DNA from: Stutzerimonas kunmingensis
GTDB lineage: Bacteria > Pseudomonadota > Gammaproteobacteria > Pseudomonadales > Pseudomonadaceae
Assembly: GCF_021432085.1 (NCBI RefSeq)
Contig: NZ_CP090366.1
Location: forward strand, 4,650,001 to 4,714,000
Direction of reading: 5' to 3'
Length of the DNA: 64,000 nt
Both the position numbers and the translations under genes were made by a program. A model generated the notes under the pieces. That model was not told where the DNA came from. It saw nothing but the letters and a program-made list of their open reading frames with translations, and ran no database searches. This document shows, piece by piece, positions 1 through 19,631 of this stretch (position 1 is its first letter; each line of letters opens with the position of its first letter).

Positions 1-339
1 TCGAGTAAACCGGTGTGCCACATGATAACGGGGTGCCTCTTGCAGAACGGTGCGCCAGCGACGTCCGCTGGCGTCCACCTGCCTTCAGCCTAACACCAGG
101 CGTCGGCGAGTCTAGGAAACAGCCCGACCGACCGTCTAAAAGCTGGTGATTTTTTAGCCAGATTCGGCTGCAATCGCTACGCTTCGGTACGTGGCGCCAT
201 GCTGACGTGCATTCCCGAAAGACGCTATCGGCCGTACTGGCATAGAGCTATCATTGTTTCTTTTTTGCCTTGGAAAGTTGCGGCTCATGCAAACGTCGTA
301 CGTCGAGCGCAGCACCTCGCGCCTCTGGCCGGCCCGCCG
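1..339. other. Intergenic leader with one hairpin
   Basis: No supported gene lies here. Positions 53-60 and 66-73 form a perfect 8-bp inverted repeat around ACGTC. It could be the 3' end of an upstream transcript, but no T-run follows, so I do not call it a terminator. The rest is the leader of the first sensor kinase. No convincing promoter was seen. Confidence 0.4.
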
Positions 340-3303
340 ATGACGAACGCCGGCATCACCACACCCCACTGGATCTTCACGCTCGGCAGCCTGCTGCTCG
401 TGCTGCTGTTCGGTAGCCTGGCATTCAATGACTACCGCGCGCGCGATGCCGCCTGGCACCTGGAAATCGACACCCACGGCGAACTGCAGAGCCTGGCACT
501 GCAGAGCGCGCAGCTCAATCAGCGGCGGCAGGCCGACATGGTCGCCACGGCGCTGGCCGGCAATGCCGAAGTGCTGCGCCAGGTACGCCAGATCGATACG
601 GCGCTACGTGATGGCCGGGCCATGGACGATGCACGTATCGAGCTGGCACGTCAGCGTCTGCGCGCCGCGTTGAGCCCGGCCTGGAGCGCCATGCAACGCC
701 ACGGCGCGTTGCAGTTGCAGATCTTCTGGAGCGACGCTGGGGTCGCCCTGCTGCGCATGCAGCAACCGGAGCGCTTCGGTGACGCAATGGCGGCGCAGCG
801 CCCGATGCTGCGCCGCGCGATGAGCGAAGGCAGCATGCAGTACGGCATGGAGGTCAATGCGCTCGGCGCCAGCAGTCGCGCCATCGTTCCTTTGCGTGCC
901 ACCGACAGCGAGTCCGGCGAGATCATCGGCGCCCTGGAAGTCGGCTACAACGTGCTGCCGGAATTGCCCGAGCTGGGCGATCAGCTGGCTGCCGGGCTGG
1001 CGCTGGTGGTCAATCGCCAGGCACTGCAGGCGGCAGACGTGGAAGCCCCCAGCGGCGTGCAACTGCGCAGCGACGGCGACTGGCTGCTGATCAAACATTC
1101 GGCGACACAGATTCTGCACTGGGCGCAGCAGAGCATGCTGCCCGAGCCGGAGAGCGGCCTGGCCTTGCGCCTGCTGAGTGCCGACGGCCGCACCTATATG
1201 CTCAATCAGATTCCCCTGCACAGCGACCGTCGGGCCCAGCCATCGGCGCCGCTGCTGGCAGCGGCGCTGGTCTGGCGCGACATCACCGCGATGCAGCAGG
1301 AGCACCAACAGGCCGAGCGCCGGCTGCTGATCAAATGGAGTCTGGCCTGGCTGATCGCCGAGGCGCTGCTGTTGACCCTGGCGGTACTGCTGCAACGGCG
1401 CATCGGCGCGCAGCTGCAGCATCAGTTCAGCCAGCAACAGCAGGGCCGACGCCGCCAGCGCCTGCTCGACCGCGCACAGAAGATCGCCAGCCTGCTGCCC
1501 GGTGTGGTTTTCCAGCTCAAGCGCTTCGCCAACGGCCGCTATGCCTTTCTCTATGCCAGCGAGGGCGCACGCGACCTCTACGGCATCGACCCGCAGCGGC
1601 TACTGGAAGATGCTTCCCAGGCCCTGGTGCACGTTCACCCGCAGGATCTGCCACGACTGAAAGCCGCACTGCTGCGTGTGGCTGCTGGGTCGACAACCGG
1701 CTCGGTGGAGTTCCGCATCCAGCATCCGCAACGCGGTTTGCTCTGGGCCGAGGGACGTGCCACCGCCGAGCGACGTCCTGACGGCACCGTGCTCTGGCAC
1801 GGCTTCGTGACTGAGATCACCGAACTGATGGAAGCCACCCGCGCGCTGCAGAAGAGCGAGAGCCGCTTCCGCGCCATGGTCAGCAACCTGCCGGGCGTGG
1901 TCTACCGCTGCCGCAACGACGGCCGCCGGCGCATGAGCTACCTGAGCGACGGCATCGAACGCCTGACCGGCTACCCGGCCGGCGATTTCGTCGGCGACCG
2001 CGTGCGCAGCTACGCCAGCCTGATCCACCCAGACGACCTCGAGCTGGCCCGGCAACACGCCGAGCAGGACACCTTCGAGGGCGTCTACCGCCTCATCAAT
2101 GCCGAAGGCCGCACCGTCTACGTGCGCGAAAAGGCCCGCGTCCTGCACGAGCGCGACGACCCTGTCGGCTGGTGCGACGGCTTCATCTGGGATGTCACCG
2201 ACCAGGCGCTGGCCAAGGAAGAGATGCAGGAGCGCGAGCGCTACCTGAGCATGCTGATCGACAACGTGATCGACGCCATCATCATCATCGACGCCCGCGG
2301 CATCATCGAGACCTTCAACCACGCCGCCGAACAGATCTTCGGCTACAGCGCCGCGGAGGTCATCGGCCGCAACCTGTCGATGCTCATGCCCGAACCGGAC
2401 CGCTCCGCCCACGACGGCTATCTGGAGACCTACGAAAGACGCGGCATTCCTCGCGCGCTGGAACAGAACCGCGAACTCACCGCCCTGCGGCGTACCGGCG
2501 AAACCTTCACCATCGAGTTGCGCGTGTCGCAGATCAACCATCACGGCGAGCGCCGATTCATCGGCCTGGTGCGCGACATCACCGAACGCAAGCGCATCGA
2601 GCGGATGAAGAGCGAACTGGTGTCCATCGTCAGCCACGAGCTGCGTACGCCACTGACCTCGATCTCCGGTGCCCTCGGCCTGATCGTCGGCGGTGCCTTG
2701 GGCGAACCCTCGCCAAACATGCGCCAGATGATCAGCATCGCCCACCAGAACAGCCTGCGCCTGGGGCGCCTGGTGGACGACCTGCTGGACATGGACAAGC
2801 TGGTCGCCGGCAAGATGACCCTCGACCTGCGCGCGCATGCGCTGCCGACGCAGCTGCAACAGGCAATCGCCGCCAATCAGGGCTACGCCAGCAAGCATGG
2901 CGTCACGCTGGAGCTGCTGCCCGCGCCGGACGTGCAGCTGATGGCAGACGACGACCGGTTGCAGCAGGTACTGGCCAATCTCATCTCCAATGCGGTCAAA
3001 TTCTCGCCGCAGGGTGGCACCGTTACGCTCGGCAGCGAGCGACGCGATGACTGGGTGCGAATCTCGGTACGCGATCAGGGACCGGGCATCGCCCCTGAAT
3101 TCCACACACGAATCTTCCAGAAATTCTCCCAGGCCGATTCCTCCGACAGCCGCCAGAAGGAAGGCACCGGCCTGGGCCTGGCCATCAGCAAGGAACTGAT
3201 CGAACACATGCACGGCCGGATCGGTTTCGATTCCGAGCCCGGCGAAGGCGCCTGTTTCTGGTGCGATTTACCAGTCGCGCCGCTGGCGCAAGATCAATCC
3301 TGA
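340..3303 (+). CDS. dCache-PAS-PAS-PAS sensor histidine kinase
   Basis: Inner-membrane sensor kinase of 987 residues. A membrane helix at about 11-30 and a second at about 330-352 enclose a periplasmic domain of about 300 residues that resembles the double-Cache sensor family (dCache_3) around its FWSDAGVALLRMQQPERFGD segment. Three cytoplasmic PAS domains follow (about 375-500, 505-625, 634-750), then HisKA with phospho-accepting His766 in VSHELRTPL, then HATPase_c with GTGLGLAISK. The third PAS carries the FixL-like heme pocket pair His691 and Arg711, 20 residues apart. The ATG at 340 is chosen because the periplasmic and membrane layout begins there; an upstream in-frame ATG at 199 would add 47 non-conserved residues. 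It has no attached receiver; the next gene supplies one. The ligand is unknown. Confidence 0.9.
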   Translation: MTNAGITTPHWIFTLGSLLLVLLFGSLAFNDYRARDAAWHLEIDTHGELQSLALQSAQLNQRRQADMVATALAGNAEVLRQVRQIDTALRDGRAMDDARIELARQRLRAALSPAWSAMQRHGALQLQIFWSDAGVALLRMQQPERFGDAMAAQRPMLRRAMSEGSMQYGMEVNALGASSRAIVPLRATDSESGEIIGALEVGYNVLPELPELGDQLAAGLALVVNRQALQAADVEAPSGVQLRSDGDWLLIKHSATQILHWAQQSMLPEPESGLALRLLSADGRTYMLNQIPLHSDRRAQPSAPLLAAALVWRDITAMQQEHQQAERRLLIKWSLAWLIAEALLLTLAVLLQRRIGAQLQHQFSQQQQGRRRQRLLDRAQKIASLLPGVVFQLKRFANGRYAFLYASEGARDLYGIDPQRLLEDASQALVHVHPQDLPRLKAALLRVAAGSTTGSVEFRIQHPQRGLLWAEGRATAERRPDGTVLWHGFVTEITELMEATRALQKSESRFRAMVSNLPGVVYRCRNDGRRRMSYLSDGIERLTGYPAGDFVGDRVRSYASLIHPDDLELARQHAEQDTFEGVYRLINAEGRTVYVREKARVLHERDDPVGWCDGFIWDVTDQALAKEEMQERERYLSMLIDNVIDAIIIIDARGIIETFNHAAEQIFGYSAAEVIGRNLSMLMPEPDRSAHDGYLETYERRGIPRALEQNRELTALRRTGETFTIELRVSQINHHGERRFIGLVRDITERKRIERMKSELVSIVSHELRTPLTSISGALGLIVGGALGEPSPNMRQMISIAHQNSLRLGRLVDDLLDMDKLVAGKMTLDLRAHALPTQLQQAIAANQGYASKHGVTLELLPAPDVQLMADDDRLQQVLANLISNAVKFSPQGGTVTLGSERRDDWVRISVRDQGPGIAPEFHTRIFQKFSQADSSDSRQKEGTGLGLAISKELIEHMHGRIGFDSEPGEGACFWCDLPVAPLAQDQS

Positions 3304-3349
3304 TGCTTCCGTTAAGCGGACGCGCACGCAAACGACCCCCGGAGGCACA

Positions 3350-3736
3350 ATGGCCGAGCTAAGGCGCATCCTGCACGTTGAAGACGATCCGTCGATTCAG
3401 GCGGTGACCAAGCTGGCCCTGGAGGCCGTTGGCGGATACGAGGTGCTGTCCTGCTCCTCTGGTGCACAGGCGCTGGAGGAAGTCGAAGCCTTCGCCCCCG
3501 ACTTCATCCTGCTGGACGTGATGATGCCGGGCATGGACGGCCCGCAGACGCTGCTCAGGCTGCGCGAGCGCATCGACCTGGAACGGATTCCGGTAACATT
3601 CATGACCGCCAAGGTGCAGCCGAGCGAGATCGAGCACCTGCGCAAGCTGGGCGCGCGCGACGTGATCGTCAAGCCGTTCGACCCGATGCAGCTGGCCGAG
3701 CAGATTCGCAGCATCTGGCTGAGTGGCCGATACTAG
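3350..3736 (+). CDS. Single-domain response regulator (CheY-like)
   Basis: A lone receiver domain of 128 residues with no output domain. It starts RILHVEDDPS, which contains the acidic pocket, has the phospho-acceptor Asp in ILLDVMMPGMDG, the conserved Thr in FMTAK, and the Lys in VIVKPFDP. A strong GGAGG lies 7 bases before the ATG. It sits 46 bases after the sensor kinase, so it is the likely phosphoryl acceptor of that kinase and could hand the phosphoryl group to the Hpt domain encoded at 6600. It is clearly related to the receiver at 6221 (shared HVED-PSIQ, EVLSC and EAFAPD-like segments), as if kinase and receiver were duplicated together. Confidence 0.93.
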   Translation: MAELRRILHVEDDPSIQAVTKLALEAVGGYEVLSCSSGAQALEEVEAFAPDFILLDVMMPGMDGPQTLLRLRERIDLERIPVTFMTAKVQPSEIEHLRKLGARDVIVKPFDPMQLAEQIRSIWLSGRY

Positions 3737-3809
3737 GCAGAACTGCTTAAGCCCCGGTCGTGAAACGCTGCCGACCGGACGCCCCCCACCGAACCAGCAA
3801 GGCGCGACG

Positions 3810-6221
3810 ATGGAGTCACCGCAACACAGCACGACGCCGATGCCATCGACCGCCCAGCCGCGCGAGCTGTCACGCCTGGCAGCGTTGCTGCGCTACGAAA
3901 TCCTCGACACCCCCGAAGACAGTGCATTCGATGACTTCACCGCGCTGGCCGCGCAGATGTGCGATACGCCCATCGCGCTGATCTCGCTGGTCGACGATCA
4001 TCGTCAGTGGTTCAAGAGCCGCGTCGGCCTCGACGTCAGCGAGACCCCGCGGGAAATCTCCTTCTGCACCTACACCATCGCCGGCGACGAGATCTTCGAG
4101 GTACCGGATACGCTGCAGGACCCGCGTTTTAGCAACAACCCACTGGTGCTCGGCGACCCGCAGATCCGCTTCTACGCCGGCACGCCGCTGACCTCGCCTG
4201 ATGGCTACAACCTCGGCACCCTGTGCGTGATCGACCGCCAGCCGCGGCGGCTCAGCGCGGAGCAGCGCGAAACCCTGGAGCGCCTCGGACGCCAGGTGAT
4301 CCGCCTGTTCGAGCAGCATCTGCTGGCGCACCGCCACGCCGAGCAGGCGGCACTGCAACAGGCCATCCTCGACAGCGCCTCCAGCGCCGTGCTGGTGACC
4401 CGCCCCGACGGCGTGGTCACCAGCGTCAACCCGACCGCCGAGCGTCTGCTCGGCTACAGCGAACAGGCGCTGGTCGGCCATCCGTTGACCGCCGCGCTGT
4501 TCCGCCCGGAGGCGCTGCAGCGCCGGGCACTGCTGCTTTCCAGCGAATTGCAGATGCCGGTCGAGGCCGATTTCTCGGTGCTGAGCGCGCCGCTGCACCG
4601 CGGCCGACGCGACATGTCCGAATGGCGCCTGCGCCACCAGAACGGCAACGAGGTGCCGGTGCTGCTGGGCGTGAGCGCGATCCATGACGAGCAGGAGCAC
4701 CTGCGCGGCTACCTGGTCAATGCCTACGACCTGGCCTATCAGGAGCAGTTGCAACTGCGCCTGCAGCAGATCGCCGCGCAGGTCCCGGGCATGCTCTTCC
4801 AGTTCCATTGGCGCGCCGATGGACCGGCGTGCTTTCCCTATGTCAGTGAAGGGGTCGAGCAGATCTACGGGCTCAGCCCGGCGCAGCTGGCCAGCAGCTT
4901 TGCGCCGATCGTCGGCCGGGTCCACGGCCCCGACCGCAGCGCCCTGTTGCTCAGCATCCGCCAGGCGGCTCGTGAACTCACGCCCTGGCACAGCGAGCAC
5001 CGTGTCGAGCACCCGCACAAGGGGCTGATCTGGGTCGAGGCGCGGGCAACCCCGCTGCAGCAGGTCGACGGCTCGGTGCTCTGGCACGGCTTCGTTACCG
5101 ATATCACCGCGCGCAAGGCCGAGCAGCTGGAGCTGGACAAACAGCAGGAGATGAACCGGCGCCTGCTCGAGGCGCTGAGTGAAGCGGTGATCGCCTGCGA
5201 TGCCGAAGGCAATCTGACCCTGTTCAACGAGAAGGCCAAGCAGTGGCATGGCGCCGATGTCGCCCCGTTATCGCCGAGCGAATGGGCCCGCCATTACCGG
5301 CTGTACCGCGCCGATGGCGTCACCCCGCTGGAACCCGAAGAGATTCCCCTGCGCCGCGCCCTCAATGGCGAGCACGTCATCGATCACGAGATGGTGCTGC
5401 TGAGCAATGGCGCACCACGGCACGTGCTGTCCAACGCCGACCCGCTGTACACCTCCGATGGCCAGCGAATGGGCGCGGTCGTCGTGCTGCACGACATCAC
5501 CGAACGCAAGCGCATCGAACGCCTGCAGCGCGAGTTCATCTCCACCGTCAGCCATGAGCTGCGCACGCCGCTGACCTCCATCACCGGCGCCCTGGCGCTG
5601 ATCTGCTCGAACGTCATGGGCGAAGTGCCCGAGTCGATGCACGAGCTGCTGGAGATCGCCCAGCAGAACAGCCAGCGCCTGAGCGCGCTGATCGACGACC
5701 TGCTGGACATGGACAAGCTGCACGCCGGCAAGATGCGCTTCGACATGCTCGAACAAGCGCTGCAACCCCAGCTGGAGCTGGCCCTGCGCAGCAACGGCAG
5801 CTACGCCGAACGGCATGGCGTGCAGCTGCACCTCGGCGCCTGCCCGGCAGTGAGCGTGACGGTCGATGCCATGCGCCTGCAGCAGGTGCTGAGCAACCTG
5901 CTGTCCAATGCAGCGAAGTTTTCCCCTGCCGGAGAACGGGTCGATCTGTCGGCGCGGGTCAGTGACGGCAAGGTTCGGGTCAGCGTCCGAGACCAGGGCC
6001 CGGGAATTTCCGATGAATTTCGTGCGCGGGTATTCCAGAAGTTCGCCCAGGCAGACTCGTCCGACAGCCGCCAGCAAGGCGGAACCGGACTGGGCCTGGC
6101 GATCAGCAAGGAGCTGATCGAGCACATGGGCGGGCAGATCGGCTTCGAATCCGAGCCCGGCCATGGCGCCTGCTTCTGGTTCGAACTACCCGCACAAGAC
6201 CAGGCCAAGGAGAGCCCGTGA
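3810..6221 (+). CDS. GAF-PAS-PAS-PAS sensor histidine kinase
   Basis: Soluble sensor kinase of 803 residues without membrane segments. An N-terminal GAF domain (about 25-165) of the type common in cytoplasmic light, redox or small-ligand sensors is followed by three PAS domains (about 183-300, 320-440, 449-565), HisKA with His582 in VSHELRTPLTS, and HATPase_c with GTGLGLAISK. From the HisKA domain onward it is very similar to the first kinase of the cluster, while the sensory halves differ. The ATG at 3810 has AAGG upstream; a start at 3723 would overlap the preceding gene and add 29 residues without family character. The stop codon overlaps the next start by one base, so kinase and receiver are translationally coupled. 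Confidence 0.9.
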   Translation: MESPQHSTTPMPSTAQPRELSRLAALLRYEILDTPEDSAFDDFTALAAQMCDTPIALISLVDDHRQWFKSRVGLDVSETPREISFCTYTIAGDEIFEVPDTLQDPRFSNNPLVLGDPQIRFYAGTPLTSPDGYNLGTLCVIDRQPRRLSAEQRETLERLGRQVIRLFEQHLLAHRHAEQAALQQAILDSASSAVLVTRPDGVVTSVNPTAERLLGYSEQALVGHPLTAALFRPEALQRRALLLSSELQMPVEADFSVLSAPLHRGRRDMSEWRLRHQNGNEVPVLLGVSAIHDEQEHLRGYLVNAYDLAYQEQLQLRLQQIAAQVPGMLFQFHWRADGPACFPYVSEGVEQIYGLSPAQLASSFAPIVGRVHGPDRSALLLSIRQAARELTPWHSEHRVEHPHKGLIWVEARATPLQQVDGSVLWHGFVTDITARKAEQLELDKQQEMNRRLLEALSEAVIACDAEGNLTLFNEKAKQWHGADVAPLSPSEWARHYRLYRADGVTPLEPEEIPLRRALNGEHVIDHEMVLLSNGAPRHVLSNADPLYTSDGQRMGAVVVLHDITERKRIERLQREFISTVSHELRTPLTSITGALALICSNVMGEVPESMHELLEIAQQNSQRLSALIDDLLDMDKLHAGKMRFDMLEQALQPQLELALRSNGSYAERHGVQLHLGACPAVSVTVDAMRLQQVLSNLLSNAAKFSPAGERVDLSARVSDGKVRVSVRDQGPGISDEFRARVFQKFAQADSSDSRQQGGTGLGLAISKELIEHMGGQIGFESEPGHGACFWFELPAQDQAKESP

Positions 6222-6607
6222 TGAAACAGCTCAAGCGTATCCTGCACGTCGAAGACGTACCGTCCATCCAGGTGGTGACTCGCATCGCCCTGGAAAAGCT
6301 CGGCGGCTTCGAAGTGCTCAGCTGTCAGTCAGGCCAGGCCGCGCTCGACCAGGTGCAGGCCTTCGCTCCGGACCTGATCCTGCTCGATGTGATGCTGCCG
6401 CAGATGGACGGCATCGAGCTGGTTCGCCAACTGGCCGATCTGGTCGACCTGCAGCAGACGCCGGTGGTGTTTCTCACCGGCCATCTGCAGCCCGAACGGC
6501 TGCAGGAGTTGCGTCAGCTCGGTGTGCGCCAGGTGCTGGGCAAGCCCTTCGACCCGCTGCAACTTGCCACCCAGTTGCGGCAGATCTGGGAGGCCGAGCA
6601 TGGATGA
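6221..6607 (+). CDS. Single-domain response regulator (CheY-like)
   Basis: A stand-alone receiver of 128 residues starting MKQLKRILHVED. The Asp acceptor lies in LILLDVMLPQMDG and the Lys in LGKPFDP. AAGGAGAG precedes the ATG at 6221; an adjacent GTG at 6218 is the alternative start. It overlaps the kinase stop by one base and the next gene by 8 bases, which makes kinase, receiver and diguanylate cyclase one translational unit. The partner is inferred to be the GAF-PAS kinase just upstream. It is a paralogue of the receiver at 3350. Confidence 0.92.
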   Translation: MKQLKRILHVEDVPSIQVVTRIALEKLGGFEVLSCQSGQAALDQVQAFAPDLILLDVMLPQMDGIELVRQLADLVDLQQTPVVFLTGHLQPERLQELRQLGVRQVLGKPFDPLQLATQLRQIWEAEHG

Positions 6608-8237
6608 TCGCGCCCGCCTGGCGCTGCAGGAGCAGCTGGCGCAGCTGGAACAGCAGTTCGGCGAGCGCCTGCAGGCCGACCTGACCGACCTCGCCGCGCT
6701 CGCCCAGGATCTGCAGCAGACCCGTGCCACCGCCAGCCGTCGGCTGGTGATGCTGAGCATCCGCGAGCGCCTGCATCGGCTGGCTGGTGCCGCCGGCACC
6801 TTCGGCTTCGCCAAGCTCGGGGAGCGCGCCAGGCAGCTGGAGCAGCGCGCCGATCGCTGGCTGGATTCGGCCAAGCCGGGCAGCCGCGCCGCCGAGGCCT
6901 TCGCCCGCGCGGTGCTGCAGTTGGCCGGCGAAACCCCTGGCCAGGAACGCGACGGCGCGGCGGAACTACCGGAGCACCACGAGGAGCCTGCCCCCGGCTG
7001 TCGCATCTACCTGATGAAGGCCGATCCGGTCGCGGGCGCCAGCATGGCGGTGACCCTGCGCAACTTCGGTTATCTGGTCAGCCAGTGGCCCAACTTCGCC
7101 GCACTGCAAGCGGCCGTGGCCGATGAACTGCCCGACGCGCTGATCGTCAGCGTGCAGCAGGACAGCGATTTCGACGCGCTCGCCGCTCTGCAGCAAGGCC
7201 TCGAGCAGCCACTGCCGCTGCTGGTCATCCACGACCGGGCCGATTTCGCCAGCCAGCTGGCCGCGGTGCGTGCCGGCGCCCAGGGCTTCTTCGTCCGCCC
7301 GCTGGATATCACCCAGCTGGAGAACAGCCTGGAGCGCTGCCTCGATCGCCAGCAGGGCGAACCCTTCCGCGTGCTGATCGTCGATGACGACGTCGAGTTG
7401 GCAGCACGCTACAGCCTGGTGCTGCGCAATGCGCAGATGCAGGTGCAGATACTCACCGAACCTACCCGCGTACTGGAGACCATGCGCAGCTTCAACCCCG
7501 AGGTACTGCTGCTGGACGTCAACATGCCGGACTGCTCGGGGCCAGAGCTGGCGCAGATGATCCGCCTGCATGACGAATGGCTGCGGGTGACCATCATCTA
7601 CCTTTCCGCCGAGACCGATACCCACCGGCAGATGGCGGCGCTGCTCAAGGCCGGCGACGATTTCATCACCAAGCCGATCAGCGATACCGCGCTGGTGGCC
7701 GCGGTGTATTCCCACGCCCAGCGTGCGCGCTCGCTGAGTACGGCGCTGGCCCGCGACAGCCTGACCGGCCTGCTCAAGCACGCCGATATCAAGGAACAGC
7801 TGGCGTTGGAAGTGCAGCGCACCACCCGCACCGGCAAACCCGCCAGCGTGGTGATGCTCGACCTCGATCATTTCAAGCAGATCAACGACACCTATGGGCA
7901 TGCCGCCGGCGACAATGTGATCCGCGCCCTGGCCAACCTGCTGCGCCAGCGCTTGCGGCGTATCGACAGCCTCGGCCGCTACGGTGGCGAGGAATTCGTC
8001 GCCGTGTTGCCCGAATGCTCGGCCCTGCAGGCCCGACGCATTTTCGACGAAATCCGCGTGCGCTTCGCTGCGCTGAGCTTCAATGCCGGCGACCAGGAGT
8101 TCCGCGTGACCTTCAGTGCCGGCATCTGCGAAACCGACGGCCACAGCGCCTCCGGCCTGCTGCTCGAGCACGCCGATCAGGCGCTGTACGCGGCCAAGCA
8201 CAACGGCCGCAACCAGGTGCAGATCGCCCAGCGCTGA
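6600..8237 (+). CDS. Hpt-REC-REC-GGDEF diguanylate cyclase
   Basis: Predicted c-di-GMP synthase of 545 residues. The Hpt domain (about 1-110) has His59 in the HRLAGAAGTFGF motif. A first receiver-like domain (about 135-250) is degenerate: the acceptor Asp is replaced in IVSVQQD, and the usual Lys-Pro is Arg-Pro. A second receiver (about 255-375) is intact with Asp306 in LLLDVNMPDCSG and Lys in ITKPIS. The GGDEF domain has an active-site GGEEF at 462-466, preceded by five residues and an RRID at 453-456 that fits the RxxD product-inhibition site. The start overlaps the receiver gene at 6221. The Hpt can plausibly receive phosphate from the neighbouring lone receivers and pass it to REC2, linking two kinases to c-di-GMP output. 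Confidence 0.92.
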   Translation: MDDRARLALQEQLAQLEQQFGERLQADLTDLAALAQDLQQTRATASRRLVMLSIRERLHRLAGAAGTFGFAKLGERARQLEQRADRWLDSAKPGSRAAEAFARAVLQLAGETPGQERDGAAELPEHHEEPAPGCRIYLMKADPVAGASMAVTLRNFGYLVSQWPNFAALQAAVADELPDALIVSVQQDSDFDALAALQQGLEQPLPLLVIHDRADFASQLAAVRAGAQGFFVRPLDITQLENSLERCLDRQQGEPFRVLIVDDDVELAARYSLVLRNAQMQVQILTEPTRVLETMRSFNPEVLLLDVNMPDCSGPELAQMIRLHDEWLRVTIIYLSAETDTHRQMAALLKAGDDFITKPISDTALVAAVYSHAQRARSLSTALARDSLTGLLKHADIKEQLALEVQRTTRTGKPASVVMLDLDHFKQINDTYGHAAGDNVIRALANLLRQRLRRIDSLGRYGGEEFVAVLPECSALQARRIFDEIRVRFAALSFNAGDQEFRVTFSAGICETDGHSASGLLLEHADQALYAAKHNGRNQVQIAQR

Positions 8238-8286
8238 GCGCACGGCCCTTTCGGCGGCGAACCGCTGTGGTCCGGACGGGTCTGAC

Positions 8287-8292
8287 TATACT
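8287..8292 (+). promoter_or_regulatory. Possible -10 element before the CHASE3 kinase operon
   Basis: TATACT lies about 78 bases before the TTG start in the only sizeable gap of the signalling cluster (8238-8369). No good -35 hexamer is visible 16-18 bases upstream, so this may be an activator-dependent promoter or chance. Confidence 0.25.
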
Positions 8293-8369
8293 GATCTGAT
8301 CCCGGTGACCGCGCGGTAGCGAGGCAACTGGGGATTCTGTGCAGTCATCCCCGGCGGAAGGAGTCCGGT

Positions 8370-11246
8370 TTGCCCGCAAGACCCGCGATCGGTTGGCATT
8401 CAATCGCCTTTCTCGCTGCGTTTCTGTTGCTCGTCGCGCTTGGCTGGCAAGGCAAACGCACGCAGGAAGCGCTGTTACAAACCAATCGTTCGGTCAGCCA
8501 TAGCCTGGAGATCATCACTTCGGTCCAAGCAATTTTGTCTTCGTTGCAAGACATCGAAACCGGTTCGCGCGGTTTCATCCTCACTGGCGACCCTATCTAT
8601 CTCGAACCTTACGAGCGCGGCCTCAGGCAACTGGAGGGCAACCGGCGCAGCTTGCAGCGCCAGGTCGACGGGCGTCATTTTCCTGATCGGCGTTGGTTCC
8701 AGACCCTGGATACAACCATTGCTGACCGCCTCGAAGTAGCCGCCAGCAATATGCAAACCCGCCGTGAGGCCGGGCTGCAGGCTGCCGTAGAGCGTCTGCG
8801 CGGGGCCGGCGGGCACCTGTTGATGGACCGCCTGCGCGCATTGCTCAACGCCGTCGAGCAACACGAGCGCAGCCACCTGGCCGCCGCCAGCGAAGCCATC
8901 GCACGCACCACCCAACGCGCGCAGCAACTGGCACTGATCGGCACGCTGGTGGTGATCGGTCTGTTCCTGGCGGCCTTCTGGGCCTTGCAGCGGAATCTGC
9001 AGATTCGCCAACAGCTCACCCGCAGCGCCCAGGCCGGCGAGGCACGTCTCGGTGCCCTGTTACAGGCCATCCCGGACCATCTCTACGCAGTTGATGAGCG
9101 GCAGCAGGTATCCAGCATTTCGCGCGGCACACCGCGCCGCGCTCCGCCACCAGAAGCGATCGAACCCTTGCTCATCGAGCTGCTCAATCAGACCGACGAA
9201 GGCGCGCTGCGGCAGAAGACCTGGTGCGAGTTGCAGACCCAGCGCACTTTCGAGGTCCGCTTGATGCCCACCGGGCTGGGCGATCATCTGGCCATCGCGC
9301 GCGACGTCAGCGAACTGCAACGCAACCGCGACAGCCTGCACGACCAGCAGGTGTTCCTCCGCCGTGTGGTCGACACCGACGACAACCTGATCTTCGTTCG
9401 CGACGCCCAGGGCCGCTTCCTGCTCTGCAATTCGGCGCTCGCTGCCCTGTTGAACGCCCGCCCCCAGGATATTGAGCAGCGCCATCCCGATGATGTGCCG
9501 TCCGCGTTGCGACTGCAGCCCCTGCTGCTGGGTGACGAAGAGCTGGCCGAGCTGGCGGGAAGCAGCGGCGATTTGCGCAGCACCGAGGTTGCGCTGACCG
9601 ATGCCCATGGCACGGAACACTGGTTCCAGGTGGTCAAGCACCCGCTGCGGATCTCGGCACGTACTTGCCATGTAGTCACGGTGGCGGTGGACATCTCCCT
9701 GCGCCGACGCATGGAGCAGATGAAGACCGAATTCATCTCCACCGTTAGCCACGAGTTGCGCACGCCGCTGACCGCCATCCGCGGCGCCCTCGGCATGCTG
9801 ATCGGCGGAATTGCTGGCCATATCAACGACGACGCCCGCCCGTTGCTGGATATCGCGCACAAGAACAGCGAACGCCTGGTGCGCCTGATCAACGATATTC
9901 TTGACATCGAAAAGCTCGAAGCCGGGCGCCTGGCCTTCAATTTCGGCCTGCACGACGTGCATGTGCTGGTGCAGCAGGCGCTGTCAGACATCGAGCCGTA
10001 CGCCCGCGACTACGGTGTCAGCCTCGCATTGGTGAGCACCGACGAATCGCGGACGAGCGAGGCTATGGTCGACCCCGACCGATTCGCCCAGGTGATGGCT
10101 AACCTGCTCTCCAATGCGATCAAGCATTCTCCCGCCGGTGGCAGCGTAACGGTCGATCTACATCATCACGACAACGTGCTGGAACTCGGCGTGCAGGATC
10201 AGGGGCCGGGGATTCCCGAGGCTTTCCGTGGGCGCATCTTCGAGCGCTTCGCCCAGGCCGATTCCTCCGACGCCCGCCAGCGCGGCGGCACCGGGCTGGG
10301 ACTGGCAATCACCCGCTCGCTGGTGCAGCAGATGCACGGACAGATCGGTTTCGACTCCCAGGAAGGTCACGGCTCGCGCTTCTGGCTGCAGCTGCCGCTG
10401 GAGGAGCAACCAGCGACGCCGCTGCAGCGACCCACTACGCCGCCGGCCAGAGCAGCCCAGCCTGACAATGCTGCGTTGATCCTCATCCTCGAGCCGGACA
10501 CCCAGGCGGCCGAGCAGCTGGCCGCGGCGCTGCAGCAGCATGGCTACGCGACCTTGACCAGCGGCACCGCAGCCGAGGCACGCCGGCTGTTGCAGCAGTT
10601 CGACATCGAGGCACTGACCCTGAGCCCGGCGCTGGATGACGAAAACAGCGCGGCCTTCCTGCAGAGCCTGCGCAGCCAGCACAACTACCGCAACCTGCCG
10701 GTGCTGATCGTCAGCCTGCAGCCGCAGCGCCGCGATGATGACGACGGCACGCTGCGCGGCGGCGCGGTGGGCGTGATCGACTGGCTGCACAAACCGATCG
10801 ACCCCTCGCGGGTCATGGACGTGATCCGCGCCTGTCTGCAGCTCGGCGGGCACAAACCGCGCATCCTGCACGTCGAGGACGACGACGACCTGCGGGTGCT
10901 GCTGGCCAGGCAGATCGCCGCGCTCGATGTCGATCTTTCCGGCGCCGCGACGCTGCACGAAGCGCGCGAGCTGATCGCGGCACAGACCTTCGACCTGGCG
11001 ATCATCGACCTGATGCTGCCGGACGGCCAGGGCACCGAGCTGTTCGACCAGCTGGCGCAGAGCGTCCCACCGCCGCCGGTGATCATCTTTTCCGCGCTCG
11101 ACACCCCGATTCAGGACGACCGCCTGGCGCTGCGCCAACTGGTGAAATCCCGTCACGACGGCGATGAGCTGGCCAGGCTGATCCAGCACCTGCTGCAACA
11201 CTGGCCGCCGGGGCACACACACGAAACCGACGAGGCTCACCCATGA
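8370..11246 (+). CDS. CHASE3 hybrid sensor histidine kinase with two receivers
   Basis: Membrane hybrid kinase of 958 residues, translated from TTG at 8370 with GGAAGGAG six bases upstream. A helix at about 9-26, a CHASE3-like extracytoplasmic four-helix domain (about 30-165, with ETGSRGFILTGD) and a helix at about 187-206 form the sensor. PAS-like segments (about 213-440), HisKA with His461 in VSHELRTPLTA, and HATPase_c follow. Two receivers end the protein. The first (about 700-820) lacks the acceptor Asp, with Ser752 at its place. The second (about 830-945) is intact with Asp880 in AIIDLMLPDGQG. Its last four bases overlap the following receiver gene. It heads the operon that runs to the glycosyltransferase at 13876. 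Confidence 0.92.
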   Translation: MPARPAIGWHSIAFLAAFLLLVALGWQGKRTQEALLQTNRSVSHSLEIITSVQAILSSLQDIETGSRGFILTGDPIYLEPYERGLRQLEGNRRSLQRQVDGRHFPDRRWFQTLDTTIADRLEVAASNMQTRREAGLQAAVERLRGAGGHLLMDRLRALLNAVEQHERSHLAAASEAIARTTQRAQQLALIGTLVVIGLFLAAFWALQRNLQIRQQLTRSAQAGEARLGALLQAIPDHLYAVDERQQVSSISRGTPRRAPPPEAIEPLLIELLNQTDEGALRQKTWCELQTQRTFEVRLMPTGLGDHLAIARDVSELQRNRDSLHDQQVFLRRVVDTDDNLIFVRDAQGRFLLCNSALAALLNARPQDIEQRHPDDVPSALRLQPLLLGDEELAELAGSSGDLRSTEVALTDAHGTEHWFQVVKHPLRISARTCHVVTVAVDISLRRRMEQMKTEFISTVSHELRTPLTAIRGALGMLIGGIAGHINDDARPLLDIAHKNSERLVRLINDILDIEKLEAGRLAFNFGLHDVHVLVQQALSDIEPYARDYGVSLALVSTDESRTSEAMVDPDRFAQVMANLLSNAIKHSPAGGSVTVDLHHHDNVLELGVQDQGPGIPEAFRGRIFERFAQADSSDARQRGGTGLGLAITRSLVQQMHGQIGFDSQEGHGSRFWLQLPLEEQPATPLQRPTTPPARAAQPDNAALILILEPDTQAAEQLAAALQQHGYATLTSGTAAEARRLLQQFDIEALTLSPALDDENSAAFLQSLRSQHNYRNLPVLIVSLQPQRRDDDDGTLRGGAVGVIDWLHKPIDPSRVMDVIRACLQLGGHKPRILHVEDDDDLRVLLARQIAALDVDLSGAATLHEARELIAAQTFDLAIIDLMLPDGQGTELFDQLAQSVPPPPVIIFSALDTPIQDDRLALRQLVKSRHDGDELARLIQHLLQHWPPGHTHETDEAHP

Positions 11247-11632
11247 GCGAATCCGCCAGCAAACGCATTCTCATGGTGGAAGACGAAGAAGACATCGCCT
11301 TTCTCATCCGCTACATGCTCGAACGTCACGGCTTCGTGGTCGACCACGCCGCCGATGGGCGGCAGACATTGGAGTACTTCGCCCAGAGCGAGCCGCCGGA
11401 CCTGACGCTGATGGACATCATGCTGCCCTACCATGATGGTCTGGAACTCATCGAACGGCTGCGGGCGCAACCCGGCTGGGACAGCGTGCCGGTGCTGATG
11501 CTGACGGCCAAGGCCCGTGAAGTGGACATCGTCCGAGCGCTGGAACTGGGCGCCGACGACTACGTGACCAAACCCTTCCAGCCGGAGGAACTGCTGGCGC
11601 GTATCCGTCGCCTGCTGAGGGGCCGCCGATGA
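11243..11632 (+). CDS. Single-domain response regulator
   Basis: A receiver of 129 residues, starting within an ATGA overlap with the hybrid kinase and ending within an ATGA overlap with the next gene. It shows VEDEEDIAF, the Asp acceptor in LTLMDIMLPYHDG, Thr in LMLTAK, and Lys in YVTKPFQPEELLARI, closer to OmpR/PhoB receivers than to the other two lone receivers here. It has no DNA-binding domain. I infer that it carries the signal from the CHASE3 kinase to the glycan machinery, perhaps through the HEAT-repeat protein or the glycosyltransferase by direct contact. Confidence 0.92.
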   Translation: MSESASKRILMVEDEEDIAFLIRYMLERHGFVVDHAADGRQTLEYFAQSEPPDLTLMDIMLPYHDGLELIERLRAQPGWDSVPVLMLTAKAREVDIVRALELGADDYVTKPFQPEELLARIRRLLRGRR

Positions 11633-12765
11633 AGCGAGCGGTAATGCTGCTTGCCCTGGCGCTGCCTTGCGGTGCGGCGCTGGCGGACGTCACCACCGCC
11701 GAGCGGCAGGTCCAGGCGCAACAACTGGACGCGGCCGAAGCCACACTTCGTGCGCATCTGGCTGGGCAGCCGGAGGACACCGCGGCGCAGTTCCTGCTCG
11801 CCCGTGTATTGAGCTGGCAAGGCCGCCCTGAACAGGCGCTGCCGATCTATCGCCGCCTGCTGCAGCAACAGCCGGACAACGCCGACTATCTGCTCGGCGA
11901 GGGCCAGGCGCTACTCTGGGCTGGTCATCCGCAACGGGCGCTGGAATCGCTCGAGCGCGCCGCCCAGCTCGCCCCGGACTATGCCGAGGTGCAGCAGGTG
12001 ATCCAGCAGGCCCGTGCTGCGCTGACCGTGCCCAGCACCGCAGCGGCGCCCGTGCCGGTGGTCGACGCCGCGACCAGGCGACGCCACGAACTGGAAATAT
12101 CCGCTCGCCAGGACTGGCTCGACAGCGGTTTTGACAACTGGCGCAGCCAGCGCCTGGACTACGCCTCGACGAAACCGGAGAGTCTCGGCTGGTATGGCGC
12201 GCTGACACGCGAGCAACGCTTCGGCGAGTGGGACGAAGGCGTCGAAGCCGGCGCCGTCATTGCGCTGGACGAGAACTGGACCCTGCAACCGGAGGTCGGC
12301 TACCAGCCGTCGCCCTATTTCCTTCCCGAGTGGCATGCCGATCTGCGCCTGCAGCGGCGGCTACCGGGCGGCTACCTCGGCGCCGTCAGTGTCCGTCGCA
12401 CCGAATACGAGACGACCCGGGTCGACCGCCTGGCGCTGAGCGCCGAGCGCTACTGGAATGCCTGGCGCGCCGGCTACACGCTGAACGTCACCGATGTCGC
12501 CAATGCCGGCACGCCGATCGGTCATGACCTGGCGCTGGACTACTACTACCAGGGCCTGAGCTACGCCGGCCTGCGCCTGACCGTCGGCGAGGAAGAAGCG
12601 GTGGAGGAACAGCAGCTGATCACCAGCGACGTGCGCGCCATCAGCCTGCAAGGTCGCCACTGGTTCGACAGCCGCTGGGCGCTGAGCTGGGAAATCGGCC
12701 ATCACCAGCAGGGCAGCTACTACGACCGGCAATGGCTGCAGCTCGGCCTGCGTCATGCTTTCTGA
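11629..12765 (+). CDS. TPR/YaiO-family outer-membrane beta-barrel protein
   Basis: Exported protein of 378 residues. A clear signal peptide ends at ALADV (about residue 20). TPR-like helical repeats occupy about 22-125 (ALPIYRRLLQQQPDN, ALESLERAAQLAPDY). The C-terminal two thirds alternate hydrophobic and polar residues with many Tyr and Trp, ending LQLGLRHAF with the terminal Phe typical of outer-membrane barrels. This layout fits the YaiO family. In other glycan exporters, such as PgaA and NfrA, a TPR plus barrel protein forms the outer-membrane exit, and I infer that role here. It overlaps both neighbours (4 and 11 bases), so it is translationally coupled to the receiver and the HEAT protein. 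Confidence 0.85.
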   Translation: MKRAVMLLALALPCGAALADVTTAERQVQAQQLDAAEATLRAHLAGQPEDTAAQFLLARVLSWQGRPEQALPIYRRLLQQQPDNADYLLGEGQALLWAGHPQRALESLERAAQLAPDYAEVQQVIQQARAALTVPSTAAAPVPVVDAATRRRHELEISARQDWLDSGFDNWRSQRLDYASTKPESLGWYGALTREQRFGEWDEGVEAGAVIALDENWTLQPEVGYQPSPYFLPEWHADLRLQRRLPGGYLGAVSVRRTEYETTRVDRLALSAERYWNAWRAGYTLNVTDVANAGTPIGHDLALDYYYQGLSYAGLRLTVGEEEAVEEQQLITSDVRAISLQGRHWFDSRWALSWEIGHHQQGSYYDRQWLQLGLRHAF

Positions 12766-13879
12766 ATGGCTGGCGCGCTGCCCCCGCTGGCTGTGCGAAA
12801 CACCGGCGAACGCCTGGGCGCAGCTCTGGCCGGAAGACCGCATGCTGCAACTGGCGCTGTACTGCGCCCTCGGCCTCGGCACACTGACCGTGCTGGTGTT
12901 GCTGCAGGTGCTTCTGCTCGGTGAGGTATCACGCCGGCGCACCGTACGCCGGCAGCAGTTCAACGAACAGTGGCGGCCCTTCTTCGCCCTCTGCAGCTTG
13001 AGCGACGAACTCCCGCCCAGCCATGCACCGCTGCCGAGGCGGCGGCAGCTGTGGTTCCTGCTGCAGTGGAACCGCACCCAGCTGCAGCTGCGCGGCGCCG
13101 CCCGCGAGCGCATGAACCGCGCCCTGATCGCCCTGGGCATGGACCGCCAGGCCCTGAACCTGCTGCGCGGGCGGGTGCGCAGCAAGCTGATCGGCCTGAC
13201 CTGCCTGCGCCATCTGGCTGAACCGACACACTGGGACGCAGTACAGTCGCTCTTGCTCAGCCGCAACTCCATCGTCGCCCTCTCCGCCGCCCAGACCCTG
13301 GTGGCGATGGACGCCAGCAAAGCCATGGAGCTGATCCTGCCGGCGGCGGTGAATCGCCCCGACTGGGCCCTGCCGCGGCTGATCAGCCTCTGCCAGCAGG
13401 CTGGCGAACAGGCCGTGACCACGCCGCTGCTGATCGTGCTGTCCTCCTCGGAAGATCCGCGTCGCGAGCGTCTGGTACCGCTGCTCGTGCAGGGCGATCC
13501 CCGCCACGCCGCGCCCTGGGCCCGCGCCCGGCTGGACGAAGGCGCACCGGCAGAATATCTGCAGGTAGCGCTGCGCTGCCTGTGCGAACTCGGCGACCCG
13601 CGCGACCGCCACCGCCTGCTACGCGCCCTGCAGCACGAACAGGACACCGTGCGTCTGGCTGCGCTGCAGGCACTGCACAAACAGGCACGCCGCGAAGACA
13701 GCGAACTGTTCCTGCCGCTGCTATCGGACAGCAGCTGGTGGGTGCGCCAGGCGGCGGCCGACAGCCTGGCGGCGATGCCGGGCGCAACGCTGGAGGGGCT
13801 GCAGCATATGCTTGAACAGGTTCGTGATCGTTACGGCAGGGACGCCCTGCGCCGCGCCATCGCGGAGGTGCGCCGGTGA
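12755..13879 (+). CDS. Membrane-anchored HEAT-repeat protein
   Basis: A protein of 374 residues. One strong membrane helix lies near the N-terminus (about 29-53, ALYCALGLGTLTVLVLLQVL). The remainder is Leu/Ala/Arg-rich helical repeats of HEAT or PBS-lyase type, for example the segments near VRLAALQALHKQ and WWVRQAAADSLAAM in the last third. Such repeats usually scaffold protein contacts, so it may bridge the receiver or c-di-GMP signal and the glycosyltransferase. It overlaps the barrel gene by 11 bases and the glycosyltransferase by 4. No enzymatic motif is seen. Confidence 0.85.
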   Translation: MLSEWLARCPRWLCETPANAWAQLWPEDRMLQLALYCALGLGTLTVLVLLQVLLLGEVSRRRTVRRQQFNEQWRPFFALCSLSDELPPSHAPLPRRRQLWFLLQWNRTQLQLRGAARERMNRALIALGMDRQALNLLRGRVRSKLIGLTCLRHLAEPTHWDAVQSLLLSRNSIVALSAAQTLVAMDASKAMELILPAAVNRPDWALPRLISLCQQAGEQAVTTPLLIVLSSSEDPRRERLVPLLVQGDPRHAAPWARARLDEGAPAEYLQVALRCLCELGDPRDRHRLLRALQHEQDTVRLAALQALHKQARREDSELFLPLLSDSSWWVRQAAADSLAAMPGATLEGLQHMLEQVRDRYGRDALRRAIAEVRR

Positions 13880-15279
13880 CCGATACCTGGCTGTGGTGGT
13901 TGCAGGTCGCATTCATCCTCTATTTCCTGCTGCTCAACGGCATGTACCTGCTGCTCAACATGCTGTCGATGGCAAGCCTCATGGGCTACATCCGGCAACG
14001 GGCGGAAACCGGCGAATTGGCGCCCTACCTGGGGGTTGAACCGCCAGTCTCGGTGCTCATGCCGGCGTTCAACGAGGAAGCGACCATCCGCACCTCGGTG
14101 CGCTCGATGCTGCAGCTGCAGTATCCCGAGTTCGAGATCGTGGTGATCAACGACGGTTCGAAGGACAACACCCTCGCCGTGCTGATCGAGGAATTCGACC
14201 TGGTGCCGCACCCCGAGCCGCTGCGCCAGGCCGTGGCCCACCAACCGGTGCAGGCCATCTATCGTTCGCGGCGCTACGCCAATCTGCGGGTGGTGGACAA
14301 GGCCAACGGCGGCAAGGCCGATGCGCTGAATGCCGGTATCAACGCGGCACGCTATGGACTGTTCTGCGGCGTCGACGCCGACTCGATCCTGCAGCGCGAC
14401 AGCCTGTTGCGCGTGGTGCAGCCCTTCCTCGAAGACGAGCGCACCATCGCCGCCGGCGGCACCGTGCGCATCGCCAATGGCTCGCAGGTGCGCGGCGGCT
14501 TTCTTATCCAGGCCGGATTGCCACGCAACTGGCTGGCGCGCTTCCAGATCGTCGAATACCTGCGTGCGTTTCTCTTCGGCCGTCTCGGCTGGTCGCCGCT
14601 CAACGCCGTGCTGATCATCTCCGGCGCCTTTGGCCTGTTCGACCGCGAACGGGTGATGGCGGTCGGCGGCTATCGCACCGATACCGTTGGCGAGGACATG
14701 GAGCTGGTGGTGCGGCTGCACCGTTATCACCGCGAGAAGCGCATCCCCTACCGCATCCGCTACCTGCCGGACCCGATCTGCTGGACCGAATGCCCGGAAG
14801 ATCTCGGCACCCTCGGCCGTCAGCGCAGCCGCTGGCAGCGCGGCCTGGCCGAAAGCCTCGGCCGTCATGCGCGGCTGGCTTTCAGCCTGCGTGGCGGCAC
14901 GCCGGGCTGGCTGGCCTGGCCGTTCATGGCGCTGTTCGAATGGATCGGCCCGCTGATCGAGCTGGTCGGCTACGGCTTCATGCTCGCCGGCTTCGCCTTC
15001 GGTGCGGTGTCCTACGCGGCGCTGGCGGCCTTCCTGCTGGTGGCGATCGGCATGGGCATCCTGCTGTCGGTCAACGGCCTGCTGCTGGAAACCATGTCCT
15101 TCCGCGTCTACAGCCGTCGACGCGACATGCTGCAGCTATTCCTGATGGCCGTGCTGGAGAACTTCGGCTACCGCCAGCTGAACACCGTCTGGCGCTGTCG
15201 TGGCCTCTGGCAATGGTTCTCGCGACGCAAGCACCACTGGGGCGCGATGCGCCGCAGCGGGCAGTGGGGGCAAAGCTAG
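13876..15279 (+). CDS. Processive family-2 glycosyltransferase (PgaC/BcsA-like)
   Basis: Inner-membrane glycan synthase of 467 residues, with a GTG start inside the end of the HEAT gene. An N-terminal helix (about 8-33) is followed by a GT-A domain with Asp93 in VINDGSKD, the metal-binding Asp167/Asp169 pair in GVDADS, the catalytic Glu273-Asp274 and Gln316-Arg319-Trp320 (QxxRW), the full signature of processive GT2 enzymes. Several membrane helices occupy about 350-425. There is no PilZ domain, so any c-di-GMP control must act elsewhere. The sugar is unknown; the family includes poly-N-acetylglucosamine and other beta-glycan synthases. It is the last gene of the operon; REP-like hairpins follow. 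Confidence 0.92.
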   Translation: MTDTWLWWLQVAFILYFLLLNGMYLLLNMLSMASLMGYIRQRAETGELAPYLGVEPPVSVLMPAFNEEATIRTSVRSMLQLQYPEFEIVVINDGSKDNTLAVLIEEFDLVPHPEPLRQAVAHQPVQAIYRSRRYANLRVVDKANGGKADALNAGINAARYGLFCGVDADSILQRDSLLRVVQPFLEDERTIAAGGTVRIANGSQVRGGFLIQAGLPRNWLARFQIVEYLRAFLFGRLGWSPLNAVLIISGAFGLFDRERVMAVGGYRTDTVGEDMELVVRLHRYHREKRIPYRIRYLPDPICWTECPEDLGTLGRQRSRWQRGLAESLGRHARLAFSLRGGTPGWLAWPFMALFEWIGPLIELVGYGFMLAGFAFGAVSYAALAAFLLVAIGMGILLSVNGLLLETMSFRVYSRRRDMLQLFLMAVLENFGYRQLNTVWRCRGLWQWFSRRKHHWGAMRRSGQWGQS

Positions 15280-15305
15280 CTGAACGCTCAAAAAACCAAA
15301 TCGGA

Positions 15306-15371
15306 GGGTGGATCACGCTTCATCGATCCACTGGCTGTGCAACAAGGTGGATGTAAAAGGCGACATCCACC
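15306..15371. repeat. Tandem REP-like hairpins
   Basis: Two adjacent palindromes lie between the convergent glycosyltransferase and kauB genes. Positions 15308-15314 pair with 15325-15331 (GTGGATC/GATCCAC), and 15346-15354 pair with 15363-15371 (GGTGGATGT/ACATCCACC). Such gene-end palindromes are common in pseudomonads and may also stabilise or end transcripts. Confidence 0.6.
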
Positions 15372-15383
15372 CTACGGATGCCG

Positions 15384-19607: not shown

Positions 19608-19631
19608 GGGCGTCACTCGTACGGGGGGAAT

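Follow-up and report, generated by a model that had tools for sequence, protein, structure and literature searches.

A kinase, cyclase and putative polysaccharide-synthase locus of Stutzerimonas kunmingensis in which a lone receiver may control a HEAT-associated glycosyltransferase

Activation by cyclic diguanylate (c-di-GMP) is common among cellulose and poly-N-acetylglucosamine (PGA) synthases. The NfrB glycosyltransferase of Escherichia coli has also been described as c-di-GMP-activated (PMC8669469). This work concerns a locus of Stutzerimonas kunmingensis that, judged from its genes, would be of the synthase-dependent exopolysaccharide (EPS) secretion kind, and for which control by a phosphorylated receiver is proposed. 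The locus occupies positions 340-15279 of the window, which is the whole stretch of 64,000 nucleotides that was analysed (4650001-4714000 of a 4.78-Mb single-contig genome). A preliminary description had placed ten plus-strand genes in a row here; ten open reading frames (ORFs) in correct frames were confirmed, and the Pfam domains agree. By their predicted content the ten genes are two modules, A (340-8237, K1-R1-K2-R2-DGC) and B (8370-15279, K3-R3-YaiO-HEAT-GT2). Eight of the nine adjacent pairs overlap or lie at most 46 bp apart (starts as given), and the exception is the gap before K3. The features are as follows.

340-3303, plus strand: K1, membrane sensor kinase; Pfam PAS-PAS-HisKA-HATPase with a weak dCache_3 match (23.5 bits, cut-off 25.7)
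3350-3736, plus strand: R1, lone receiver; a single receiver by Pfam
3723-6221, plus strand: K2, sensor kinase without predicted membrane helix; Pfam GAF-PAS-HisKA-HATPase; in-frame ATG at 3810
6218-6607, plus strand: R2, lone receiver; a single receiver by Pfam, 59% identical to R1
6600-8237, plus strand: DGC, diguanylate cyclase; putative Hpt, apparently degenerate receiver (REC), REC, GGDEF; GGEEF and RxxD
8238-8369, no strand: junction gap between A and B, 132 bp
8259-8292, plus strand: promoter-like footprint, GAACCG-N16-TCTGA then CTATACT; AlgU-like and RpoS-like
8370-11246, plus strand: K3, hybrid kinase; Pfam CHASE3-PAS-HisKA-HATPase-REC-REC; TTG start after AAGGAG
11243-11632, plus strand: R3, lone PhoB-type receiver; signature R28, Y63, W79
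11629-12765, plus strand: YaiO; hydrophobic signal-like N-terminus, tetratricopeptide repeats (TPRs), outer-membrane barrel
12755-13879, plus strand: HEAT; one membrane helix (about 37-55) and an alpha-solenoid
13876-15279, plus strand: GT2, membrane glycosyltransferase; hyaluronan/cellulose-synthase fold

The three kinases with different sensory domains and the three lone receivers of the preliminary description were thus recovered by Pfam, R3 being a single receiver like R1 and R2. Apart from generic domain models, the NCBIfam kinase and receiver matches fell below their cut-offs, and no names were taken from them.

A YaiO-type barrel near a family 2 glycosyltransferase (GT2) is an arrangement shared with E. 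coli YaiO/YaiP. To our knowledge, YaiO/YaiP includes no HEAT protein or receiver. Module B is like PgaABCD in its barrel with TPRs and in a GT2 related to PgaC, but the scores are 140.9 of 422.3 bits for PgaC and 23 of 366.65 for PgaA, and no deacetylase match was found among the ten genes. Unlike BcsA, the GT2 has no PilZ match, and CelA scores 49.6 of 699.1 bits. Module B is also like NfrB/NfrA of E. coli, described as a GT2 with QxxRW, a partner with TPRs and an outer-membrane barrel, and overlapping genes (PMC8669469). Unlike NfrB, no MshEN Pfam match was found in 45 glycosyltransferases (GTs) of the module B kind, and module B has HEAT and a lone receiver instead. XagABCD of Xanthomonas is described as a c-di-GMP-linked EPS operon with a putative GT (PMC3609779, PMC3528676, PMC4643136); the accessible portions of these sources give the GT, together with a BcsB-like gene in iron oxidisers, and mention neither HEAT nor a lone receiver, and XagABCD is set apart by these descriptions.

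Among the open-licence literature matches listed, the accessible text describes no link of HEAT, YaiO or a lone receiver to a GT in this arrangement. Two candidates were rejected. The accessible text of the Xanthomonas HEAT papers mentions HEAT repeats for the effector XopN only, and that on Rubrivivax EmbRS deals with different clusters for polysaccharides. The sea cluster of S. stutzeri MJL19 (PMC12125118), whose gene content is given in a supplementary figure, is only a candidate for module B.

The presence of a processive-type GT2 and a TPR-barrel partner among two-component genes, as previously claimed, is borne out by domain matches and fold. The GT2 has DxD, ED and QxxRW motifs, membrane helices and a full-length matching fold, by which it is classed as a processive-type membrane GT2. 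It models as a hyaluronan/cellulose-synthase-type enzyme, and its PDB sequence search gave only short matches, all to its first part. YaiO is classed as a YaiO-type barrel by TIGR04390 (143.6 bits, cut-off 32) and PF19413 (94.0 bits, cut-off 23.9), and its PDB sequence search gave matches to the TPR part. The function of HEAT is not assignable from its fold because the fold search returned only generic solenoids (alphaRep, importin); its PDB sequence search returned mainly designed alphaRep proteins. The structure and Pfam runs covered 54 HEAT and 45 GT sequences. R3 consists of one receiver without an output domain and keeps Asp, Thr and Lys, as in a single-domain response regulator. R28, Y63 and W79 are conserved in an alignment of 37 R3 sequences (36 of 66 loci and the window), and the other receivers compared lack them, save W79 in the DGC receiver. 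K3 carries two receivers at its C-terminal end, of which the first lacks aspartate at the usual position; this was missing from the preliminary description.

The core of module B recurs far outside the genus. The scan of named HEAT loci took a single peptide pattern as its starting point; of the 191 loci confirmed, the best 80 were covered. A GT2 lies directly 3' of HEAT in 80/80 of these loci (four cut short), an R3-like receiver lies upstream on the same strand in 66/80, and YaiO lies upstream in 60/80, every one with R3. YaiO is 3' of the GT in a further 10/80, seven of them from Xanthomonadales genera, and none was found nearby in the remaining 10/80. The flank genes were called by a greedy ORF picker that errs in high-GC DNA; HEAT, GT or R3 was missed by it in several loci and recovered by profile search. 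Starting from the GT, matches at E<=1e-70 were found in 17 of 369 genomes of the class, and HEAT adjoins in 17/17, although six of these HEAT genes were found only by a profile made from 54 HEAT sequences (48-122 bits); the GT is on the opposite strand in one genome (G170) and the HEAT frame is short in another (G183). Starting from HEAT, 15/369 genomes have a match, 11 of them with a GT. The named records belong to Gamma- and Betaproteobacteria, and the labels of metagenome-assembled genomes (MAGs), taken as given, add Deltaproteobacteria, Nitrospirae, Nitrospinales, Pyrinomonadaceae, Planctomycetota, Cyanosarcina and Clostridia. R3 adjoins YaiO-HEAT-GT across phyla, and does so even where the available stretch of the locus yielded no kinase. 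On this gene content the module B core is judged old and widespread. The nearest named relatives of the window's HEAT gene (95-99% protein identity) are strains of S. xanthomarina, S. kunmingensis, S. chloritidismutans and S. stutzeri.

Several loci depart from the common order. Four Xanthomonadales loci (L099, L104, L113, L123) have HEAT-GT-YaiO followed by an 801-843-aa protein, which is a PF00884 sulfatase in L104, the only one of the set scanned; in three of them a protein of 314-319 aa comes next, and the two of these that were scanned gave no Pfam match. A contig labelled Clostridia (L089) has REC-HEAT-GT and no YaiO match, as is expected if the label is right because there would be no outer membrane. 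In Halomonas olivaria (L080), K3, YaiO and HEAT are split into several frames and the module is apparently decaying.

We lean towards a reading in which module B is a phosphorylation-controlled polysaccharide machine 3' of module A, in which phosphorylated R3 would switch the GT2 via HEAT and c-di-GMP would be a second input. Its basis lies at the sequence level: gene content, motifs, order, the constant HEAT-GT pairing, R3 conservation, the separability of A and B and the junction footprint. K3 would phosphorylate R3, which would then bind the cytosolic HEAT solenoid anchored beside the GT2, and the solenoid would turn the GT2 on or off. The GT2 would make the chain and extrude it through its own membrane channel, and the TPR-YaiO barrel would take it across the outer membrane. 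With less support, the K3 receiver tail may hand phosphate to the Hpt of DGC, so that the direct switch R3 and the level of c-di-GMP might both be under the control of one kinase. We rank the route K3 to R3 to HEAT to GT2 first, with a fully integrated c-di-GMP system in second place. A precedent for the switching of a glycan enzyme by a lone receiver is EpsW-EpsZ of Myxococcus xanthus, described as a single-domain receiver that acts on a polysaccharide enzyme (PMC12802240). Such an action is suggested here by linkage and R3 conservation; unlike the present processive-type GT2 with HEAT, the EpsZ target is described as a phosphoglycosyl transferase of a Wzx/Wzy pathway.

In the cases examined this GT2 family always comes with HEAT and in most of them with a lone receiver, which suggests that synthesis is gated by phosphorylation. 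If true, such synthases would have a second control principle of wide distribution beside c-di-GMP. We tentatively extend the idea to a widespread synthase class, as possible rather than probable: an obligate membrane-anchored HEAT subunit of the GT2 would dock a dedicated lone receiver, phosphorylation and not c-di-GMP would gate synthesis, and the same hybrid kinase would also drive an Hpt-cyclase in Stutzerimonas and some betaproteobacteria. The phosphorylation idea is directly testable because the genus has natural pairs with and without module B at one site.

The preliminary description had joined all ten genes in a single system and had proposed a gene-neighbourhood search as its check, which gave a divided answer. 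The genus sample comprised 56 genomes (Stutzerimonas, judged from named relatives), which are related, so the events are not independent. A DGC orthologue (E<=1e-150) was found in 51/56, and GT and HEAT in the same 37. When coordinates were compared by eye, A and B were joined, about 5.6 kb apart, in 36 of the 56 (36 of the 37 GT carriers) and on different contigs in G088; 14/56 have DGC without GT and HEAT, 5/56 have neither and 0/56 have GT without DGC. Two genomes from another genus, G021 and G090, have both modules, separated by more than 1 Mb. Across the 119 genomes of the family, HEAT was found in 11 and the cyclase at >=51% identity in 24; at E<=1e-60 the cyclase count is 98/119, paralogues included. 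The single-system claim is not supported by these counts: the modules are joined in most of the genus and separate elsewhere.

In six stretches without module B (L127-L130, L155, L156), module A leads straight to the downstream gene. K1-R1-K2-R2-DGC stands between the same neighbours as in the window in L127, L128, L129 and L130, where about 20 to 240 bases are all that separates the counterparts of window positions 8218-8232 and 15384-15388; L155 and L156 have the same order without module B. Block A is in a different setting in G015 (L126). K3 is present in L154 (G503) and R3, YaiO, HEAT and GT were not found; this content fits a loss of R3-YaiO-HEAT-GT as a unit. In a further genus (L131, L133), the upstream gene u1 is again close to a K-R1-DGC block; module A therefore looks older at the site, and by these comparisons it looks old there. 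These clean sites, together with the many genus genomes without B, would also fit a chance insertion of unrelated neighbours, with A and B functionally untied. We consider this very improbable, as 36 of the 37 carriers are joined and a like join occurs in betaproteobacteria.

That join was found in two MAGs. The Gallionella MAG (L092) has, all on the plus strand, a CHASE hybrid kinase, a receiver, R1 (58% identity), an Hpt-REC-REC-GGDEF cyclase (36% over 497 residues), R3, YaiO, HEAT and GT. The betaproteobacterial MAG L086 has R1 (55%), DGC in two frames and the same R3-YaiO-HEAT-GT core. Because A-like and B genes adjoin in both, a functional link of the modules is likely, and this recurrence in another class is the best evidence for the single-system idea. 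GGDEF anywhere in the flank occurs in 11/58 loci outside the family against about 8 expected at the density of the window's genome (4.78 Mb with 38 GGDEF matches). As the flank number is near expectation, weight is given only to the orthologous blocks of L086 and L092, which are contiguous.

To judge from its domains, module A itself serves phospho-signalling and is expected to make c-di-GMP. Its kinase-receiver pair was probably duplicated because R1 and R2 are so alike. The Hpt-bearing cyclase of the preliminary description stands as a diguanylate cyclase by GGDEF (146 bits), GGEEF and the RxxD I-site; its putative Hpt part has the Hpt-type HxLxG, and its Pfam score of 22.3 bits is under the cut-off of 24.6 (36.3 bits in the Gallionella relative). 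An apparently degenerate second receiver N-terminal to the intact one had been missed. DGC is like PleD in its tandem receivers before GGDEF, and the PleD model gives 191 bits (cut-off 474). GcbA is a REC-REC-GGDEF cyclase like PleD. Unlike cyclases of the PleD/GcbA type, DGC has an extra, putative Hpt at its N-terminus and neighbouring lone receivers.

With such a block beside the synthase, one integrated system might be supposed, in which the Hpt-DGC and the lone receivers take their input from all three kinases and the GT2 has local c-di-GMP as its direct activator. The joined genus genomes, the constant company of DGC with the GT there, the R1 orthologues and cyclase genes 5' of the core in L086 and L092, and the described precedent of locally controlled NfrB (PMC8669469) speak for it. 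However, a c-di-GMP-binding Pfam domain was found in 0/45 GTs and 0/54 HEAT proteins, which lends no support to the earlier idea that c-di-GMP converges on the GT, although a site of an undescribed kind is possible. Module A also occurs without B, an adjoining cyclase block is lacking in 56/58 named module B loci outside the family (some on short contigs), and module B has its own promoter-like footprint, described below. We regard this integrated system as unlikely. The K3 receiver tail and the Hpt-cyclase appear to occur together: the tail is present in 0/12 Halomonadaceae loci (one broken) against 22/22 named Pseudomonadaceae loci, and no DGC at >=50% identity was found in the 11 Halomonadaceae genomes searched, two of which have 37-39% matches. 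A plain K3-R3 pair would suffice in Halomonadaceae.

Several observations weigh against the R3-HEAT switch. R3 was not found in 14/80 HEAT loci, of which 8 are from Xanthomonadales genera and one, L121, has no more than about 490 bp of upstream sequence. R3 is therefore not needed by all members; the receiver counted for L116 is 2.8 kb away and is perhaps not R3. The phospho-acceptor of R3 is Glu, not Asp, in L088 and L095, where R3 is possibly locked on. W79 is common to R3 and the intact DGC receiver, which in 19 Stutzerimonas loci has Trp at this position; the remaining receivers in the comparison do not. HEAT has no GT match in G153, G166 and G304 (partial HEAT, 42-45 bits) or in G308, where it is at a contig edge with the GT side off the contig. 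Given the repeated joining to the DGC block, the main input may be c-di-GMP. The link of K3 tail and Hpt is a single clade contrast, and the L067 genome has the K3 tail with no DGC found.

The gap before K3 was aligned over 20 joined loci. The two main clades match poorly apart from a few conserved elements, namely GCGAACCG, then TC[TC][AG]A 16-17 bases on, and a ribosome site; CTA[CT]ACT adjoins TC[TC][AG]A in 17/19. The pattern GAAC-N18/19-TC[TC][AG]A lies 112-147 bp 5' of K3 in 19/20 joined loci (L065 is without it), a descriptive count and no independent test, as the pattern was derived from the alignment itself. It has 20 matches in 815,052 bases (L046-L065, both strands), of which 18 are junction sites. 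Among 37 loci with K3 placed, 19 have the footprint and 18 do not, including all 12 Halomonadaceae (the upstream DNA of L071 is missing). CTACACT alone lies 65-80 bp 5' of K3 in L066, L033 and L034, which have no DGC before K3, and is absent 5' of K3 in L064 and L067. The AlgU consensus is given as GAACTT-N16/17-TCtgA (PMC10651043) and the RpoS -10 consensus as CTATACT (PMC11784136); the -35 element GAACCG of the window differs from GAACTT at two bases and does not match the AlgU consensus exactly. Scanning with a promoter consensus gave no sigma-70 site within the gap. Terminator-like sites over 1-16000 number 4 against 7.2 in shuffles. The footprint is probably the promoter of module B, under stress sigma factors.

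Such a promoter would also suit a self-standing EPS module under mainly transcriptional control (AlgU/RpoS), in which R3 acts elsewhere (e.g., motility or as a phosphate sink) and HEAT is an assembly factor of the GT2. The footprint in nearly all joined loci, the HEAT-GT pairs without R3 and the reported driving of pslA by AlgU in P. stutzeri A1501 (PMC9141998) are in its favour. Nevertheless, R3 adjoins the core across phyla even where no kinase was found, and it has residues absent from other receivers; we hold this explanation to be improbable.

Other features were observed around the locus. An imperfect inverted repeat with 30-nt arms lies at 15302-15376, just 3' of the GT; it has 18 genome matches at E<=0.001, itself included, and is thus taken as a REP-like element at the 3' edge of module B. 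A second GGDEF protein (PAS-GGDEF) is near the locus, about 1 kb upstream of the window (L146:15714-17015, minus strand). The open frame at L146:16837-18000 (minus strand, ending at the slice edge 18000) has a fatty-acid desaturase match and, close to its C-terminal end, an ISL3-type transposase match. A ZnuA zinc-binding protein at 18528-19616 (minus strand) has ten His-Asp-Asp units in a run, and the opposite strand of this run reads as a VVI-repeat ORF.
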